A stretch of DNA of 33,693 nt from Kiloniellales bacterium. Lineage in GTDB: Bacteria > Pseudomonadota > Alphaproteobacteria > Kiloniellales > JAKSDN01. The stretch is taken from assembly GCA_022360075.1 (NCBI GenBank), contig JAKSDN010000872.1, positions 1-33,693 on the forward strand. Direction: 5' to 3'. A model generated the notes under the pieces. That model made no database searches. It was not told the origin of the DNA and was given only the letters and a program-made list of their open reading frames with translations. Position 1 is the first letter of the stretch. Every line of letters begins with the position of its first letter. Both the position numbers and the translations under genes were made by a program. Positions 4,801-30,421 of this stretch are shown piece by piece.

Positions 4801-4840
4801 GTGGGATCAACACTCAGAACCGCCATATATTGACGAGTTC

Positions 4841-4855
4841 ACCACATCTTGTGGT
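4841..4855 (+). promoter_or_regulatory. gcrA leader hairpin
   Basis: ACCACA-TCT-TGTGGT forms a perfect 6-bp stem with a 3-nt loop, ending 6 nt before the AGGGGGT ribosome binding site of gcrA. It may influence translation start or mRNA stability; no further evidence is visible. Confidence 0.35.
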
Positions 4856-4874
4856 CAATTTAGGGGGTATGCCA

Positions 4875-5285
4875 ATGAGCTGGACCGAGGAACGCGTAAC
4901 TGAGCTGTGCCGCCTGTGGGACGCCGGCTACAGTGCCTCTGCCATCGGTCGTCAGATCGGCTTGTCGAAGAACGCGATCATCGGCAAGGCCCACAGGCTG
5001 GGTCTGAAGCCCCGGCCGTCGCCGATCAGGCGGCGCATCCCGACGCCGACGATGACCTCGCCAATCCTGCGGCCGGAGCCGCAAAGCGAGCCGGCGCCGA
5101 TGCCCATGCCGCCGGCCCCGAAGGAACGCGCCGGCGGGCCGTCCTGCCACTGGCCGATCGGCGATCCGAGCGAGAGCGACTTCCGTTTCTGCGGCAAACC
5201 AGCCATTCCGGGGAAACCCTATTGCTCGGACCACTGCGCCAAGGCCTACATTTCGCGCAGTCGCAACGATTCAGAGGCCGCCTAG
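4875..5285 (+). CDS. gcrA: GcrA cell-cycle regulator
   Basis: GcrA is a sigma-70 cofactor of alphaproteobacteria that binds methylated GANTC promoters and drives cell-cycle genes. The 136-residue protein starts with the diagnostic MSWTEERV...LWDAGYSASAIG and the helix-turn-helix LSKNAIIGKAHRLGL (about residues 3-45). A Pro-rich linker follows (about 46-95), then the conserved Cys-containing C-terminal region with CHWPIGDP, FRFCGKP and YCSDHCAKAY, which binds RNA polymerase sigma-70 in the family. The ATG at 4875 is favoured by an AGGGGGT site 7 nt upstream; the ATG at 4869 would be too close. It is convergent with ggt, with 33 nt between the stop codons. Identification is secure. Confidence 0.97.
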   Translation: MSWTEERVTELCRLWDAGYSASAIGRQIGLSKNAIIGKAHRLGLKPRPSPIRRRIPTPTMTSPILRPEPQSEPAPMPMPPAPKERAGGPSCHWPIGDPSESDFRFCGKPAIPGKPYCSDHCAKAYISRSRNDSEAA

Positions 5286-5318
5286 AGAGCTTGGCCGAAA
5301 GCCCGAAGCGGCGGCGGT

Positions 5319-6902
5319 TCACATAAGGAGCGCGGCGCCGCCGCGCCGCGGGTCCCCCGTCGCCTGCCAGCCGCCGTCCGCGCCGCGCGAGACGGCGTGC
5401 ACGCCGCCGAAGAAGAGGTTGTGCCGTGGCCAGTTCCGGGTCCGGGTGACCTGCTGAGCGCAGGCGGCGGATATCAATGCAGCGAGGTCTTCGTCGAGCT
5501 CGGCCTCGAGGCTCAGCTCCCCGTCCTCGAAGTGTATGCGCGGTGCCCGGACCGCCTCCTCGACGGGCATGGCGAAGTCAATCAGGTTGCTCAAGACTTG
5601 GAGAATGGCGGTTCGGATCCGGTTCGAGCCGCCGGAGCCGAGCGCGGCGACGCCGCCATCGGCGAATCTGGCGACGGAAGGCGACATCATCGAGCAAAGC
5701 CGGCGGCCGGTGGGCCAGCGATGGAAGCCGCCCGGGTTGAGGTCGGCCTCGCCCAGCATGTTGTTCACCATCACGCCCGTGCCCGGCAGGACGTAGCCGC
5801 ATCCCTCGCCGTTGGACAGGGTCAGGCTTGCGATGTTGCCGTCGCCGTCCACGACGCTGATGTGGGTTGTCCCCCGCGAAGACGGGATGCCGCCGCTCAC
5901 CTCGCGCTCGTAACGCTCGAGAAGCCGGCGGTCCAGCAGCCGCGCAGCCGCCTGGTCCTCTCCGCCGGAGTCGGCCGGCATTCCCGACTCGAGCCGTGCC
6001 CGGTTCGTGAGGGCCATGACCCGCGTGAGCAGCGAAAGGTGAGGCTCGGAGCCGAACTGACGCGCCTCGAGGTCATGACGGTCCAGGAGCGCGAGGGCAA
6101 AGGCGATCAGGATCCCTCCCGTGGAGGGCGGCGGGTTGGTGAAGATGCGGGCGCCGCGATAGCGCCGCTCCAGCGGCTGCCGTCTTTCGACCCGATAGCC
6201 GGTGAGGTCCCCGGCGGTCAGCAAGCCGCCTTGCTCGCGGCAGGCCTTGACCAGGCCCTGCCCGATCTCGCCTTCGTAGAACAGCCGCGGGCCCTCCGCC
6301 GCGAGCGCCTCCAGAGTGCCGGCCAGGTCATGCTGGACGATGCAGTCGCCCTCGCCGAGCAGCGCCCCGTCGGGCCGCGTGTAGACGGCCCGTGAGTCTG
6401 CCCTCGCGGTGAGGATCGGACCGACGACGCTGAACAGATAGGCATCGACGGCCCGCAGCGTGGCTCCCTCGCGGGCCAGGCGCGCGGCCGGGGCGATGAG
6501 GCGCGCCAGGGGCATGCGCGCGAGATCCTCGTGAACGGCGGCGATGCCCGCGACCGCGCCCGGCGTTGCCGCTGCGCCGAGCCCGATGTGGAACTCCTGC
6601 GTCGCCGTGCCGAAGTCGGCGATCGCGGGGTAGAAGTCCATCTCGCCGGACCGCACCAGAGGGCCGGGGTCGGTCAGAGGCGTATCGACGAAGAAGTCAT
6701 AGACCTGAGGCCTGCCTTCGGCCGGGACCGCGAGCAGGAAGCCGCCGCCGGCGAGCGAGCAGAGCACCGGCTCGGCCACCGCGGCGGCGCAGAATGCGGC
6801 GATGACCGCGTCATAGGCGTTACCGCCGTCGGCCAGGATCTCCTGCGCTGCGGCCGCCGTCTCGGGATGGCCGCAGGCGACGGCGCCCATGCTGCCCGGC
6901 AT
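5319..6902 (-). CDS. ggt: gamma-glutamyltransferase family protein, no signal peptide
   Basis: The 527-residue protein carries the Ntn-hydrolase features of gamma-glutamyltranspeptidase: GHPETAAAAQEILADGGNAYDAV at the N-terminus, AGGGFLL, PPPSTGGI (about 257-264), the autocleavage/nucleophile site at T345 in GTTHISVVDGDGN, SNGEGCG and the GSGGSNRIRTAILQVLSN segment (about 427-444). Family members cleave gamma-glutamyl bonds of glutathione and related compounds. The ATG at 6902 has a GGGGAGG site 9 nt upstream and the conserved domain begins at once, so there is no export signal and the enzyme should be cytoplasmic, unlike periplasmic GGT of enterics. A role in gamma-glutamyl amide or glutathione turnover is possible; substrate is not predictable. 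Confidence 0.93.
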   Translation of the reverse strand: MPGSMGAVACGHPETAAAAQEILADGGNAYDAVIAAFCAAAVAEPVLCSLAGGGFLLAVPAEGRPQVYDFFVDTPLTDPGPLVRSGEMDFYPAIADFGTATQEFHIGLGAAATPGAVAGIAAVHEDLARMPLARLIAPAARLAREGATLRAVDAYLFSVVGPILTARADSRAVYTRPDGALLGEGDCIVQHDLAGTLEALAAEGPRLFYEGEIGQGLVKACREQGGLLTAGDLTGYRVERRQPLERRYRGARIFTNPPPSTGGILIAFALALLDRHDLEARQFGSEPHLSLLTRVMALTNRARLESGMPADSGGEDQAAARLLDRRLLERYEREVSGGIPSSRGTTHISVVDGDGNIASLTLSNGEGCGYVLPGTGVMVNNMLGEADLNPGGFHRWPTGRRLCSMMSPSVARFADGGVAALGSGGSNRIRTAILQVLSNLIDFAMPVEEAVRAPRIHFEDGELSLEAELDEDLAALISAACAQQVTRTRNWPRHNLFFGGVHAVSRGADGGWQATGDPRRGGAALLM

Positions 6903-7074
6903 CGCTATAGCCTCCCCGCTTGATTTCTATAGGACTTTTGGCGATCGGCCGCACTTCACTCTTGCCACGGAGCAAGCCGGCGGTAAAGCGGGAGGCGTGG
7001 CTCAAGATTTCAGCCAGGCTCGATCGATAATCGTGGCCTGAAGCAGATAAACACGCTTAAATTGTAGAGAAAGG

Positions 7075-7186
7075 CAAGAGAATGCGTCGCGGCGATTGGA
7101 GAGGCCTCGGCACCTCTGCGCTCTTAGTCTCGGGGTCCGGCCATGGACGAGAGCGACTAGTTCCAATGTCACCGCGACGCCTCTTG
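7075..7186. ncRNA. 112-nt structured element, possible three-way-junction RNA or leader
   Basis: An extensive nested inverted repeat fills this part of the gap. The closing stem pairs 7075-7080 (CAAGAG) with 7181-7186, and after a 3-nt bulge 7084-7092 (GCGTCGCGG) with 7172-7180. A second stem pairs 7095-7100 (ATTGGA) with 7162-7167. Inside, 7119-7124 pairs with 7150-7155, closing a small GTCC/GGAC hairpin (7135-7148), and a weaker GAGG/CCTC hairpin spans 7101-7116. At least 25 base pairs are perfect. The transcribed strand is not clear: a CtrA box with a TTTAAT -10 would start a leftward transcript at the 7186 end, making it a leader of ggt or a small RNA. I do not recognise it as 6S, SRP or a known riboswitch. 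Confidence 0.5.
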
Positions 7187-7203
7187 ATTAAACAGCCTAA
7201 ACA

Positions 7204-7218
7204 TTAAGATAATCTTAA
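7204..7218. promoter_or_regulatory. CtrA-type box, perfect TTAA-N7-TTAA
   Basis: TTAAGATAATCTTAA matches the CtrA full-site consensus TTAA-N7-TTAA exactly and is also a perfect palindrome. On the minus strand a TTTAAT -10 (complement of 7187-7192) is placed so that the box covers the -35 position, the usual geometry of CtrA-activated promoters. That would fire toward the structured element and ggt. Rightward action on the response regulator gene at 7461 is the alternative. Confidence 0.65.
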
Positions 7219-7318
7219 GCCAGCAGGCCTATGAGAAGGCACTGTACGAAATCGGCTACGTGGACCGTATTACGATAGTCCGAGAGCTCGGCAGGCCGCA
7301 CTACTCACAAACTCGAAG

Positions 7319-7340
7319 AAAAAAGCCCGACGACCGGGCT
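7319..7340 (-). terminator. intrinsic terminator, leftward
   Basis: On the minus strand a 6-bp stem (AGCCCG/CGGGCT, 7324-7329 with 7335-7340, 5-nt loop) runs into six T residues (7324-7319). This is a classic Rho-independent terminator for leftward transcription. No minus-strand gene ends here, so it either stops antisense transcription from the response regulator locus or ends a small RNA. Confidence 0.6.
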
Positions 7341-7344
7341 AGGC

Positions 7345-7374
7345 TTCACATCCCGTGTATATCTATGGTATAGG
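7345..7374 (+). promoter_or_regulatory. candidate sigma-70 promoter of the response regulator gene
   Basis: TTCACA (7345-7350), an 18-bp spacer and TATAGG (7369-7374) fit a housekeeping promoter moderately well and would give a leader of about 80 nt to the ATG at 7461. The call rests on consensus similarity only. Confidence 0.4.
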
Positions 7375-7460
7375 GGCCTCGACCAAGTGCGCTAGACATG
7401 TGGCGCGGGAGAAGCGGCCTATCCGAGCCAACATAGTTTCCAGTGGGGGACAGGACGACA

Positions 7461-8189
7461 ATGCTGAACAAACCTAGGCGGTCCGTGGGCGAAGCGAAGA
7501 TGCTCTTCGGAGCGGCAAGCGGACCTCTTAAGATCCTCATCGTCGATGATCACCCCTTATTTCGTGCGGGTTTACGGCATCTGGTGAGTCAGCTCTCCGA
7601 CGACCTGGAAATTCTTGAAGCCGGCAACGGGGAGCAGGCCCTGGCCCGCCTCGACGAGGATGGAGCTCTCGATCTGGACCTGGTACTAGTCGATCTGCTT
7701 ATGCCAGGGATGGATGGTCTCGAGTGCCTCAAGCTACTTTGCGGCCGCCTCCCGGAGGTGCCGGTCGTCGTGATCTCGGTGAAGGAGCGGGCCGAGGATG
7801 TCCGCTATGCTATCGAGGCGGGCGCCATGGGGTACATTCCGAAATCCTCCAGCCCCGAGGTCCTCGTCAACGCGCTCAAGCTCGTGCTCTCGGGCGGTGT
7901 TTATCTGCCGCCGCATCTTCTGTCTTCGGCGGCGACGGAGCCCCGCTGGGCCGTGCCCACCCGCGGCAAGCAGGCGCTACCGGCGCGCGGCGCGCTGTCC
8001 CGCCTGACGCCGCGCCAGCGCGAAGTCCTCTCGCTGATGGCGGAAGGCAAGTCGAACAAGGAGATTGCGAAGGAACTGGGTCTGGCCGCCGGCACCGTGA
8101 AGATTCACGTCTCGAGCATCTTCAAGGCGCTCAACGTGAACAACCGGACCCTCGCCGTGATCGCCGCCAGGGAGTCCGCCGCAGCCTGA
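7461..8189 (+). CDS. NarL/FixJ-type response regulator
   Basis: This is a two-component transcription factor of 242 residues. The receiver domain (about 22-142) shows the acidic pair D29-D30, the phosphoacceptor D78 in LVDLLMPGMDG, S106 and K128. After a linker, the LuxR-type helix-turn-helix (about 182-238) contains LTPRQREVLSLMAEGKSNKEIAKELGL and TVKIHVSSIFKALNV. The ATG at 7461 is chosen for the ACAGGA site upstream; GTG 7443 and ATG 7500 are alternatives. No cognate kinase is adjacent (the nearest is at 12614-16009), and the gene converges with a diguanylate cyclase, so the target genes are unknown. The function class is certain, the pathway is not. Confidence 0.93.
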   Translation: MLNKPRRSVGEAKMLFGAASGPLKILIVDDHPLFRAGLRHLVSQLSDDLEILEAGNGEQALARLDEDGALDLDLVLVDLLMPGMDGLECLKLLCGRLPEVPVVVISVKERAEDVRYAIEAGAMGYIPKSSSPEVLVNALKLVLSGGVYLPPHLLSSAATEPRWAVPTRGKQALPARGALSRLTPRQREVLSLMAEGKSNKEIAKELGLAAGTVKIHVSSIFKALNVNNRTLAVIAARESAAA

Positions 8190-8211: not shown

Positions 8212-9267
8212 TCAGGCCGCTGCGTCGGAGCCGAGCGCCTGGGTCAGAGCGGTTTCGTCGACCACGCGATTGCGTCCGCTGCGCTTGGCTTCGTAGAGCG
8301 CTTGGTCTGCCCTGCCGATTAGGCTGCTGGGCGTGTCTTCCGTCCTGTGACGGGCGACGCCGATGGAGATGGTGACCTGGCCGTAGTTGGTCCCTGATTT
8401 CCGGTCGGTGACCTCTCTTTCGGCGAGCGAGCGTCGGAAGGCCTGCGCCCGTGAGACGGCCTCCGATAGCTCCGTTCCCTGCAGAATGACCGCGAATTCC
8501 TCGCCGCCGAAGCGCGCCGAGATCCGCTCGCCGCTCAAGGTCGCGTTCAGACTGCGCGCGACCAGCTTGAGGACTTGGTCGCCGACACGGTGGCCGAAGC
8601 GGTCGTTGAAGCTCTTGAAGTGGTCGACATCGGCCATCAGGAGGCAAAAGGGCTCACCTTTCTCCTTGGCGGCCTGCGTGGTCGCCTGCAGCGCCGCATC
8701 GAAATGCTTGCGATTGGCAAGTCCCGTCAAGGGATCGGTGATTGCCTCGCGTGCGACCTCCTCCAGGTTTGCCTGGAGTTGATGGATCTCCCGCGACGCT
8801 TCTGAAAGCTCGGCTTCGAGCCGCTTGTTGCGCTTGGCCAGCTGCTCGGTCTCGGCCAGGATCCGGCGCACGCTGGCGCCGATCTCCTGCTCGCCGTCGC
8901 CGATCTGGCCCGAGAGTCCATCGAGCTTGTCGCGATACTCTCCGGCGCGTGCGCCGCTTTCCGCCAGCGAGCGGATGACTTGGTTGACCGAAGCGCTGAC
9001 GCGCTCGCCGGTCGAAGCGAAATCTCCGACATCGGCGTCCAGCCGGAAGTGCCGGCAATACAACTTTTCCGCTATTTCTTCGGTCAGTGGCCGATCCGCG
9101 GCGAGGAGCTGTTTGACCTCCCTGGTCAAGCCTGGGATCGAGTTGGCCATGTAGCAGTAGCACAATGCGAAGTTGTCTGGCACCGGCTGAAGCCCGTGCC
9201 TGAGCATGAACTCGAACGCCGATTCGGCCAACGATCCGGCCTCGGTGAGATCCTCGGTGTAGAACAT
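8212..9267 (-). CDS. diguanylate cyclase (GGDEF domain)
   Basis: The enzyme makes cyclic di-GMP from two GTP. The N-terminal part (1-115) is soluble and not a recognised sensor domain; a coiled coil with Glu/Lys-rich heptads follows (about 120-172), which would dimerise the catalytic domain. The GGDEF domain (about 173-340) has DPLTGLANRKHFD, metal-binding D213 in MADVDHFKSFND, and the active-site GGEEF at 254-258. The RXXD inhibitory site expected just before it is replaced by SGER, so product inhibition is probably absent. No membrane segment is seen. The start at 9267 has only a weak ribosome binding site, next to a hairpin. The gene sits 155 nt downstream of the Sel1 gene on the same strand. 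Confidence 0.94.
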   Translation of the reverse strand: MFYTEDLTEAGSLAESAFEFMLRHGLQPVPDNFALCYCYMANSIPGLTREVKQLLAADRPLTEEIAEKLYCRHFRLDADVGDFASTGERVSASVNQVIRSLAESGARAGEYRDKLDGLSGQIGDGEQEIGASVRRILAETEQLAKRNKRLEAELSEASREIHQLQANLEEVAREAITDPLTGLANRKHFDAALQATTQAAKEKGEPFCLLMADVDHFKSFNDRFGHRVGDQVLKLVARSLNATLSGERISARFGGEEFAVILQGTELSEAVSRAQAFRRSLAEREVTDRKSGTNYGQVTISIGVARHRTEDTPSSLIGRADQALYEAKRSGRNRVVDETALTQALGSDAAA

Positions 9268-27781: not shown

Positions 27782-27796
27782 TTAAGGGTCGCTTAA
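27782..27796. promoter_or_regulatory. CtrA-type box, perfect TTAA-N7-TTAA, upstream of the DUF2336 gene
   Basis: TTAAGGGTCGCTTAA matches TTAA-N7-TTAA exactly, inside the palindrome GTTAAGGGTCGCTTAAC. It lies 110 nt upstream of the DUF2336 start at 27907 in a 220-nt gap. Downstream, the AT-rich stretch CATTACATCATAATTGATC (27810-27829) is unusual for this GC-rich sequence and is a likely promoter. Control by CtrA is inferred from the consensus. Confidence 0.7.
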
Positions 27797-27906
27797 CGCT
27801 CATTACATCATAATTGATCGCGGTTCGGCCCATTTAACGCGCGTCCGTTGCGGTCGGCGCCTGGCTTGCCGCAAGCGTGACCCATGATCGGAAGTCAAGG
27901 GAAACA

Positions 27907-29022
27907 ATGGCTTCAAAACTCTCGAAGGACGATGTCAGTCGCCTTTTGACCGACCCCTCGCCGAAGACCCGTGCGGAGACCGTCTCCAAGATCGCGGTCC
28001 AGTTCGACGATCGTCGGTTGAGCGAAAGCGAACGCAATATCGCCGAGGATATCTTCCGCGCCGTCTTGCAGGACGTGGAGGTCCATGTTCGCGAGACCCT
28101 GTCGGCTCATCTCAAGTCCTCGCCCGACTTGCCGCGCGATATCGCGCTGTCGCTGGCGAAGGACGTCGAGTCGGTGGCCTTGCCGGTCCTGAAGTTCTCC
28201 GAGGTCCTGACGGACGAGGACCTCATCGAGATCGTTCAGGGCGAGAACTCGGCCAAGCAGATCGCCATCGCCCAGCGCAAGGTGGTTTCCTCCGGGGTCG
28301 CCGATGCCTTGATCGACACCGGCAATGAGACCGCCGTGGCCAAGCTCGTCTCGAACGAGGGTGCCGAGCTGACCGAGCGGGCGATCGGCCGGGTCATGAC
28401 CAACTACAAGAAGAGCCAGAGTGTCGCGGACTCCCTGTCGCGGCGGCCGAACCTGCCGCCGGCGCTGTCCGAGCAGATGGTCAATGCCCTGACCCAGAAG
28501 CTCCAAAGCGTCCTGACCGCCAAGCACGATCTTCCGCCGGATCAGATCAGCAACCTGCTGCTGCAGGCGCGCGAGCGCGCCACGGTGACGCTGATCAGCG
28601 CCGGCTCCAGCGACGAGGAGCTGGAGCGGCTGGTCGAGCAGATGCACATCAACGGCCGCTTGACGCCCTCGGTCGTCCTGCGCGCGACGGCGATGGGCGA
28701 TCTCGCGTTCTTCGAGATGTCCCTGGCCCGGCTGGCCCGCATTCCGGTGCAGAACGCGCGGATCCTAATCCATGACCAGGGCAACCTGGGCTTCGAATCG
28801 CTCTACTCGCGCACCGGCTTGCCGGAGCGTTGGTTCCCGGCCTTCCGCGCCGGCCTCGACGTGATCAGCGAGACCGACTACGACGGCGGCCCCTACGATC
28901 GGGAGCGCTTCGTCTCGCGCATGGTCGAGCGCATGCTGACCTTGTTCGAGGATCCGTCGGACCGCATGAGCGAGGCCGACATCGAATATCTGATGAACAA
29001 GCTTACGCAGCTTGCCGCCTAG
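27907..29022 (+). CDS. DUF2336 domain-containing protein
   Basis: The 371-residue, all-helical cytoplasmic protein matches the alphaproteobacterial DUF2336 family: an N-terminal LTDPSPKTRAETVSKIAVQFD.....L...E...AEDIFRAVLQDVEVHVRETLSAHL block and HEAT-like repeats through residue 230, then a C-terminal DLAFFEMSLARLARIPVQNARILIHD segment. The family has no settled biochemical role. The ATG at 27907 follows an AAGGGAA site; the ATG at 27877 is in frame but would place the leader in the protein. A perfect CtrA-type box upstream suggests cell-cycle-timed expression, in line with the presence of gcrA in the window. It is a single-gene unit followed by tRNA-Pro. Confidence 0.92.
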   Translation: MASKLSKDDVSRLLTDPSPKTRAETVSKIAVQFDDRRLSESERNIAEDIFRAVLQDVEVHVRETLSAHLKSSPDLPRDIALSLAKDVESVALPVLKFSEVLTDEDLIEIVQGENSAKQIAIAQRKVVSSGVADALIDTGNETAVAKLVSNEGAELTERAIGRVMTNYKKSQSVADSLSRRPNLPPALSEQMVNALTQKLQSVLTAKHDLPPDQISNLLLQARERATVTLISAGSSDEELERLVEQMHINGRLTPSVVLRATAMGDLAFFEMSLARLARIPVQNARILIHDQGNLGFESLYSRTGLPERWFPAFRAGLDVISETDYDGGPYDRERFVSRMVERMLTLFEDPSDRMSEADIEYLMNKLTQLAA

Positions 29023-29106: not shown

Positions 29107-29183
29107 CGGGGAGTAGCTCAGCCTGGTAGAGCACCGTCTTCGGGAGGCGGGGGCCGGAGGTTCAAATCCTCTCTCCCCGACCA
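29107..29183 (+). tRNA. tRNA-Pro (anticodon CGG)
   Basis: The 77-nt sequence folds as a full cloverleaf: acceptor stem CGGGGAG (29107-29113) with CTCCCCG (29173-29179), D-arm GCTC...GAGC, anticodon stem CCGTC/GGCGG with loop TTCGGGA, a T-arm GGAGG-TTCAAAT-CCTCT, discriminator A and encoded CCA (29181-29183). The anticodon CGG reads the proline codon CCG. No copy of its 3' end was found nearby, so no integrated element is bounded by it here. Confidence 0.97.
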
Positions 29184-29244: not shown

Positions 29245-30267
29245 TTACGCGGCCAAAAGCAAATCTCGAGCGGGCTGCGGCAAGCGGCGTACCCCAGCTG
29301 CTAAGGCACTTTTCCATTTCGGTCCTCGGCTGCGGGCTTCTTCGTAGGCAACGGTGATATCGTCGGGGCTGCCGTTCAGCTCGGCGGAAGCCGCGATCAG
29401 ATCCGCTGCCTGAGCGATGTCCTTGCGCACCTTCTCGGCCTGTGCCCGTCTGCGGGTCGCCACGATCAGCTTGTGAACGGCATAGCGGGCGGGTTGTGGC
29501 ACGTTGACCAGGACGCCGTAGCGGTACAGCACCGCGGCAGGTATCGGGTCCTGGATGAGGAAGTCCAGGAACGGGAGCGGTTGGGCGAACGCACCGAGAG
29601 CCTTGAGTTCAATGAGTTCATCCCTATCCGACTCTCGCTTCATCGTAGTCAGGAGCTCGACGGCCGTTCCGCTCTCGCCGCGCCAGCCCGACGATTTCGC
29701 GTAGTGACGGGGTGACGGTCTTGGCCGGAAGGTCTCGACGGATTGGAGCACTTCGGCGAACGCCGGGTCCATGCGATCATCAAGCGCAAGGCTGATCGTG
29801 TAGTGCTGGGCCAGGTCAATGTCCTCGGTCTTGGCGATCGCGCTTTCGAGCGGGCGCCCGAGGATCGCGGGGTAGCAGCCAAAGGCATGGGAACCCACCA
29901 GCACGGCTCGGAGTCTGAACGCGCCTGCCTTGGCGAGAGCCGAGAGAACCTTGCCCGTTTGTGCGTCTGGGGACGGATAGCCAGCCTCTCGGAGCATCCG
30001 GACGAAGCGACCGCGCTCACGGTCCCGCGCCTTGAGACCCGCTGCCTGCTCCCTCGTCCGTTCGATCCGCTGGCGAAGCTCGGGCGAGTCGGGTCCAAGG
30101 TAGGTGTTTCGGACGGCCCCTGCGAATCGCTGAGTTGTGTACCAATAGAATCTCTCGCTTCGCTCTATGAGCTTGGGCGAGCCGGGAATGGCGATCAGGG
30201 CATCGTCCTGGAGGCGAGCCAGCAGGTCGGAGTAAACTGTCTGCGCTGTCAAAGGGTAAGGCTTCAT
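29245..30267 (-). CDS. GSU2403-type nucleotidyltransferase-fold protein
   Basis: The 340-residue protein resembles the GSU2403/NTP_transf_8 family of minimal nucleotidyltransferases. The polymerase-beta-like core shows LVGSHAFGCYPAILG (about 123-137, with G125-S126) and TEDIDLAQ (148-154) supplying D149 and D151, the expected metal-binding acids. The N-terminal third is helical and charged and may bind a partner or nucleic acid. Substrate is not known; related folds include antitoxin and toxin nucleotidyltransferases. The ATG at 30267 has no ribosome binding site and stands 2 nt from a perfect 19-bp inverted repeat, so its message may be leaderless or structured. The gene stands alone next to tRNA-Pro and appears a little lower in GC than its neighbours, so it may have been acquired. 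Confidence 0.8.
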   Translation of the reverse strand: MKPYPLTAQTVYSDLLARLQDDALIAIPGSPKLIERSERFYWYTTQRFAGAVRNTYLGPDSPELRQRIERTREQAAGLKARDRERGRFVRMLREAGYPSPDAQTGKVLSALAKAGAFRLRAVLVGSHAFGCYPAILGRPLESAIAKTEDIDLAQHYTISLALDDRMDPAFAEVLQSVETFRPRPSPRHYAKSSGWRGESGTAVELLTTMKRESDRDELIELKALGAFAQPLPFLDFLIQDPIPAAVLYRYGVLVNVPQPARYAVHKLIVATRRRAQAEKVRKDIAQAADLIAASAELNGSPDDITVAYEEARSRGPKWKSALAAGVRRLPQPARDLLLAA

Positions 30268-30269
30268 GA

Positions 30270-30310
30270 CCGTCTTGTACTACAAAAAAACTTTTTGTAG
30301 TACAAGACGG
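30270..30310. repeat. perfect 19-bp inverted repeat at the nucleotidyltransferase start
   Basis: CCGTCTTGTACTACAAAAA (30270-30288) is the exact reverse complement of 30292-30310, separated by 3 nt (AAC). Read toward the nucleotidyltransferase, TTGTAC and TAGTAC inside the arms have 17-bp spacing and could be a weak -35/-10 pair, so a dimeric repressor could cover the promoter. As RNA it would be a long hairpin directly before the start codon. A separate GCGGGA/TCCCGC stem follows at 30314-30329. Confidence 0.85.
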
Positions 30311-30421
30311 GAAGCGGGATCCCTCCCGCCGAGGCCAGTTGACGGCCTTCGGGCAGGCCGCTACCAAGGTTTGCAGGGCGATCAGGCCTTAGCTGGCCGA
30401 TCCATCGAAGGGAACCGTGTC

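Follow-up and report, generated by a model that had tools for sequence, protein, structure and literature searches.

The gap between ggt and the response-regulator gene

The window analyzed here is a whole stretch of 33,693 nt from a contig of a Kiloniellales bacterium, in which the element of interest lies in the gap between two divergently oriented genes. To its left, on the minus strand, is ggt (5319..6902), encoding a gamma-glutamyltranspeptidase (PF01019), with gcrA for the cell-cycle regulator GcrA (4830-5285, plus strand) on the far side. To its right lies the gene for a NarL/LuxR-type response regulator combining PF00072 and PF00196 (7443..8189, plus strand), followed by that for a GGDEF protein (8212-9267, minus strand). 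The closest database proteins share 71-72% identity with the response regulator (P0002-P0004) and 69-70% with the ggt product (P0122-P0123). Several of the listed protein relatives with organism names come from Kiloniellales or Kiloniellaceae, and others are assigned to Pelagibius, Rhodovibrionaceae, Alphaproteobacteria, or only Pseudomonadota.

The element itself is an imperfect nested inverted repeat of 112 nt (7075..7186), predicted to form a three-way junction. It is closed by an outer 6-bp arm (CAAGAG at 7075-7080, CTCTTG at 7181-7186), which is set apart by a 3-nt bulge (AAT, 7081-7083) from a perfect 9-bp arm, the 5' side GCGTCGCGG (7084-7092) of which is complementary to the 3' side CCGCGACGC (7172-7180). 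Further inward follow a 6-bp stem (ATTGGA at 7095-7100, TCCAAT at 7162-7167) and, in the fold, two hairpins at about 7100-7117 and 7119-7155. The nested stems that the original prediction had claimed are thus all present at their positions, both in the letters themselves and in an automatic repeat search, which recovered the central arm as 7084-7095/7169-7180 with 92% complementarity. For the ATTGGA/TCCAAT stem only the complementarity held fully: in the minimum-energy fold of the plus strand, it is paired only in a shifted and broken form, and on the minus strand it is mostly paired.

The complementarity exceeds chance, as had also been claimed. Folded as 7070-7190, the element yields a three-way junction on both strands, at -54.3 kcal/mol on the plus strand (z -3.55, equaled by 1 of 200 shuffles) and at -52.6 kcal/mol on the minus strand (z -3.81, equaled by none of 200). 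A fold scan of the window comprised 842 entries of 121 nt, made up of a grid of 840 stretches (plus strand only) and the element on each strand. Here, the element ranked second (minus strand, z -6.0) and fifth (plus strand, z -4.1), with z values that were taken from 40 shuffles each and are noisier than those of the 200-shuffle folds. The other top stretches were 30250 (first, z -6.75), 30210 (third, z -5.9), and 30930 (fourth, z -4.3). We also searched for the nested pattern as such (within 120 nt, two perfect 9-bp arms accompanied outside and inside by perfect 6-bp arms at most 4 nt away), which occurs once in the window and once per 100 shuffled windows, for parameters that were fitted after the element had been seen. 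One such pattern against about 0.01 per shuffled window, together with the scan ranks, indicates that the element is not ordinary noise. Strong isolated hairpins are a common kind of feature in bacterial intergenic gaps, and it would be no surprise to meet a single hairpin of such strength in some part of a genome. Over the whole 303 nt of 6880-7182, folding is no stronger than in shuffles (z +0.75).

Elsewhere in the window, the scan entries 30250 and 30210 overlie a 19-bp hairpin at 30270-30310, a perfect inverted repeat with a 3-nt spacer and an A/T-rich centre, located just before the start of a minus-strand ORF (29245-30267). The surrounding stretch (30240-30380) folds far beyond shuffles (z -6.3), and the repeat does not occur in the terminator scan list.

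Promoter-like and terminator-like sites

At the right edge of the element, an exact CtrA-type box of the form TTAA-N7-TTAA (TTAAGATAATCTTAA, 7204-7218) is accompanied by a -10-like hexamer, TTTAAT (7192-7187, minus strand). Both have the order, as the original prediction had it, and the spacing expected for a leftward start: with a start that we infer near 7181, the box in minus-strand reading begins ~37 bases upstream (5' base 7218), and ggt lies downstream of the putative promoter. Exact boxes number two in the window and none in 100 whole-window shuffles, which ignore the lower G+C of the gap; the second (27782-27796) precedes a plus-strand ORF (27877-29022) by about 80 nt. A longer CtrA/GANTC-type pattern was also tried and set aside, as its best match carries three mismatches and is at chance level (1 found versus 0.88 expected).

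Rightward, the sole sigma-70-type match found in 6800-7600 is TTGATT-N18-GATAAT (7184-7213, plus strand; 1 found versus 0.3 expected in region shuffles). It overlaps the CtrA-type box, and its -10 lies beneath the box. A plus-strand open frame at 7188-7373 contains YEKALYEIGYVD.

Terminator-like sites were found twice in the same region, versus 0.5 expected, and both belong to the minus strand: at about 7318-7340, AGCCCGGTCGTCGGGCT and a subsequent T run make up a good hairpin of the intrinsic-terminator type (hairpin 7324-7340), and at 7231-7216 there is a weak site. For a leftward transcript, both are upstream of the element (7340-7324 and 7231-7216), and the stronger one stands between the element and the response regulator. 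A short leftward transcript begun between this hairpin and the response-regulator gene may end there; no long leftward ORF does so, and the only minus-strand ORFs nearby are short (32 to 64 aa). The scan of 6800-7600 detected no terminator-like site at the 3' end of the element on either strand, nor, on the minus strand, anywhere from the element to ggt.

Searches for relatives of the element

No Rfam family matched the element, as anticipated. At the gathering threshold, Rfam 15 returned only a tRNA (29107-29180) for the whole window, and a relaxed search of 6850-7500 (E up to 10) returned three matches, none of them overlapping the element. A covariance model built from the single sequence found only the element itself in the window and 40 loci, where the next hits had E values of 0.28 (same place, other strand), 0.74, and 0.97. 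The 33.7-kb window holds no second copy, the first two of these being its next hits. Applied with stricter filters, the model reached at best E 0.216 across 61 genomes of the order and E 0.179 across 385 genomes of the class (at most nine candidates scored per genome, among the matches listed), in both cases in a single genome and at a place with a long open frame. Because these wide searches combined a single-sequence model with strict filters, diverged homologs could be missed.

At the DNA level, 7060-7200 has a match at E <= 1 in 50 of the 61 order genomes, all of them short (at most about 55 nt). Roughly bases 7136-7157 recur in many of them at 95%; this 22-mer is nearly identical to the LPAMDDSD codons of one gene in several order genomes. 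Ten loci with the 22-mer (L024-L033) were inspected; seven have the same coding context, whereas L026, L028, and L029 have others. Four of the seven were translated and read LPAMDDSDLRRG, belonging to a gene that we take to encode a polyprenyl (farnesyl-type) diphosphate synthase. The 22-mer was rejected as a homology signal and judged a chance match to conserved codons. A search with the whole gap gave matches at E <= 0.01 in 3 of the 61 order genomes, none overlapping the element. The same holds for the four plasmid records retrieved at E 0.7, and a phage search gave no match. Local alignment of the element to the fetched loci peaked at a raw score of 45 (L071), a value without a shuffle baseline. 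No paper joining "Kiloniellales" with "small RNA" was returned by a literature search.

Two other short parts of the gap resemble sequences elsewhere in the order (E values per genome, 61 searched). A 36-nt piece (7229-7264) matches the 3' end of an NMT1-type gene at 83% (L068, E 0.0044), perhaps as a gene remnant or by chance, and ~31 nt at 6963-6993 match, at 91%, a stretch close to where a 480-codon open frame starts (L066, E 3.9e-4), possibly representing a short shared intergenic repeat.

The neighboring genes were surveyed in the same 61 order genomes: the response regulator was present in 7 (E <= 1e-55) and ggt in 41 (E <= 1e-120). From the latter, 30 ggt loci were retrieved along with flanks of ~1.5 kb, or less where a contig ends sooner. 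A gcrA match lies beside ggt in 23 of these 30, and the gcrA-ggt pairing (4830-6902 in the window) is a recurrent neighborhood in the order. The response regulator, on the other hand, is found beside ggt in one of the 30 (L043, the same place as L001), and among the fetched loci it adjoins ggt only in the window and in G001. In none of the 30 do the 600 nt before the projected start of ggt contain an exact TTAA-N7-TTAA. The exact box is equally absent from eight response-regulator loci of seven genomes, among which L001 and L015 are one place and the sequence of L022 breaks off right before the gene.

A contig profile search with an alignment of 24 response regulators yielded 14 loci, of which two bear Kiloniellales or Kiloniellaceae in their titles. 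Among the loci compared, L001 is the sole one where gcrA, ggt, and the response regulator occur together, and it is the one syntenic relative found. At the corresponding place, the element is missing. The two gaps align no better than shuffled sequence does (the score of the whole gap was matched by 138 of 200 shuffles and that of 7060-7260 by 158 of 200), and the strongest-folding part of the L001 gap is ordinary (z -0.84 and -0.25). The missing fold counts against a conserved RNA, although weakly, since the neighboring regulator is only about 62% identical. As far as the data go, the element appears to be lineage-restricted among the genomes searched. The idea in the original prediction of a small RNA or regulated leader with a selected structure thus gained no support from comparison: no credible relative of the fold turned up in the 61 order or 385 class genomes, and the syntenic relative lacks it.

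Possible roles and known systems

The explanation that we tentatively put first, at rather less than an even chance, is that a ggt leader, read leftward and possibly activated by CtrA, carries this lineage-restricted imperfect hairpin as its 5'-terminal stem-loop. The promoter would consist of TTTAAT (7192-7187) with the CtrA-type box (7204-7218) standing for the -35, and with the box in that place phospho-CtrA would activate it. Transcription would begin near 7181, read the 9-bp arm and the junction, and continue through about 170 nt of less structured leader into ggt. The stem-loop would mainly shield the 5' end of the mRNA and have no sensing role. As the box covers the -10 of the rightward match, it could at the same time repress that promoter. 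Leftward transcription, CtrA binding, and mRNA stabilization are all presumed in this proposal. In its favor are a fold that beats shuffles on both strands, the box and the hexamer, the nearby gcrA, and the lack of a terminator-like site before ggt. Against it stand the element and the box not being conserved in the fetched loci, the L001 gap without the fold, and the unremarkable folding of 6880-7182. The promoter geometry is attractive, resting on the inferred start. A transcript that begins near 7181 would leave out most of 7181-7186, as spacer DNA unable to pair with 7075-7080 in RNA. The part that RNA could form is then the 9-bp arm and everything inside it, and the outer arm is left unexplained.

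Nearly as likely is a palindrome without any selected RNA function, either what is left of a mobile or REP-like repeat after decay or an inverted repeat of local origin (through chance or slippage in replication), and in both cases a mere neighbor of the promoter. Such an origin agrees with the want of a credible fold homolog in the order and the class, with the single copy in the window, and with its absence from L001. It sits less well with the nested three-stem arrangement, expected about 0.01 times per window for a pattern fitted afterward, or with the flanks, where no target-site duplication is visible by eye. For a mobile element in particular, the plasmid and phage searches produced no credible match and hence no sign of a known one.

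A free-standing CtrA-activated small RNA, transcribed leftward from about 7181 and working through base pairing as CcnA does in Caulobacter, is unlikely. The compact minus-strand fold, the CtrA-type box at a fitting distance, and the precedent of CcnA would suit it, but the minus strand has no terminator-like site after the element, where the stem is followed by CCTTTCTCTA and not by a clear T run, and neither a credible relative nor an Rfam match to the element was found. Given the start near 7181 and no terminator, a small RNA with ends at 7075 and 7186 would have neither a proper 5' end for the outer arm nor a visible 3' end. A leader that continues into ggt needs no terminator and is the preferred reading. 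We are more doubtful still of a CtrA-activated regulatory RNA new to one Kiloniellales lineage, the three-way junction of which would couple the CtrA phosphorelay to the expression of gamma-glutamyltranspeptidase or to distant targets.

Improbable, too, and placed lower again, is a rightward transcript that bears the element as a leader or attenuator toward the response regulator. The full fold including the outer arm requires all of 7075-7186 to be transcribed, which a rightward transcript allows. Yet no sigma-70-type match lies to the left of the element in 6800-7600, the sole match (7184-7213) being at its right edge, and about 256 nt separate the element from the response-regulator ORF. 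Finally, a small protein from the 41-aa ORF at 7082-7207 (plus strand, its ATG preceded by a purine-rich stretch), with the fold as a by-product, is very improbable and was rejected, for no protein in a collection of 5.8 billion shares three 5-residue words with it and the order genomes gave only matches at E 0.039-0.088 in 6 of 61, in mixed open-frame contexts, in line with the claim of an element unexplained by a protein gene.

If the element is transcribed and CtrA-dependent, it would represent a CtrA-linked structured RNA or leader beyond the model alphaproteobacteria and link glutathione turnover to a cell-cycle and motility regulator. For now, the element amounts to a single strong hairpin, isolated as far as the searches reach, next to a plausible CtrA-type promoter.

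Stem-loops in the 5' UTR can stabilize bacterial mRNAs. The proposed leader resembles these in the strong stem-loop expected a few bases from the inferred 5' end and differs in having a three-way junction instead of a simple hairpin.

In Caulobacter, full CtrA motifs are described as activating when their 5' base is near the -35 region (PMC4287350). One motif of the ctrA gene, at -39 of P2 and -14 of P3, is read there as activating one promoter and repressing the other (PMC4287350). Our locus is similar in its exact TTAA-N7-TTAA with the 5' base at about -37 of the inferred start, and a single box may likewise serve to activate one promoter while covering another's -10 (PMC4287350, PMC11264516). 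Unlike the promoters treated in these sources, it has a putative start and a candidate box, and no exact box was found upstream of ggt in the fetched relatives.

The ncRNA CcnA of Caulobacter crescentus (182 nt) is reported to lie at the replication origin, with a measured start, a CtrA box at -23 from it, and a CtrA box also in the terminal region (PMC8959179). Our element sits instead in the ggt gap, has a putative start, and is likened to CcnA by description and not by sequence. What both have in common, judging from that account, is a small non-coding stretch in an alphaproteobacterium with a CtrA box just upstream of the start, here a predicted one (PMC8959179).
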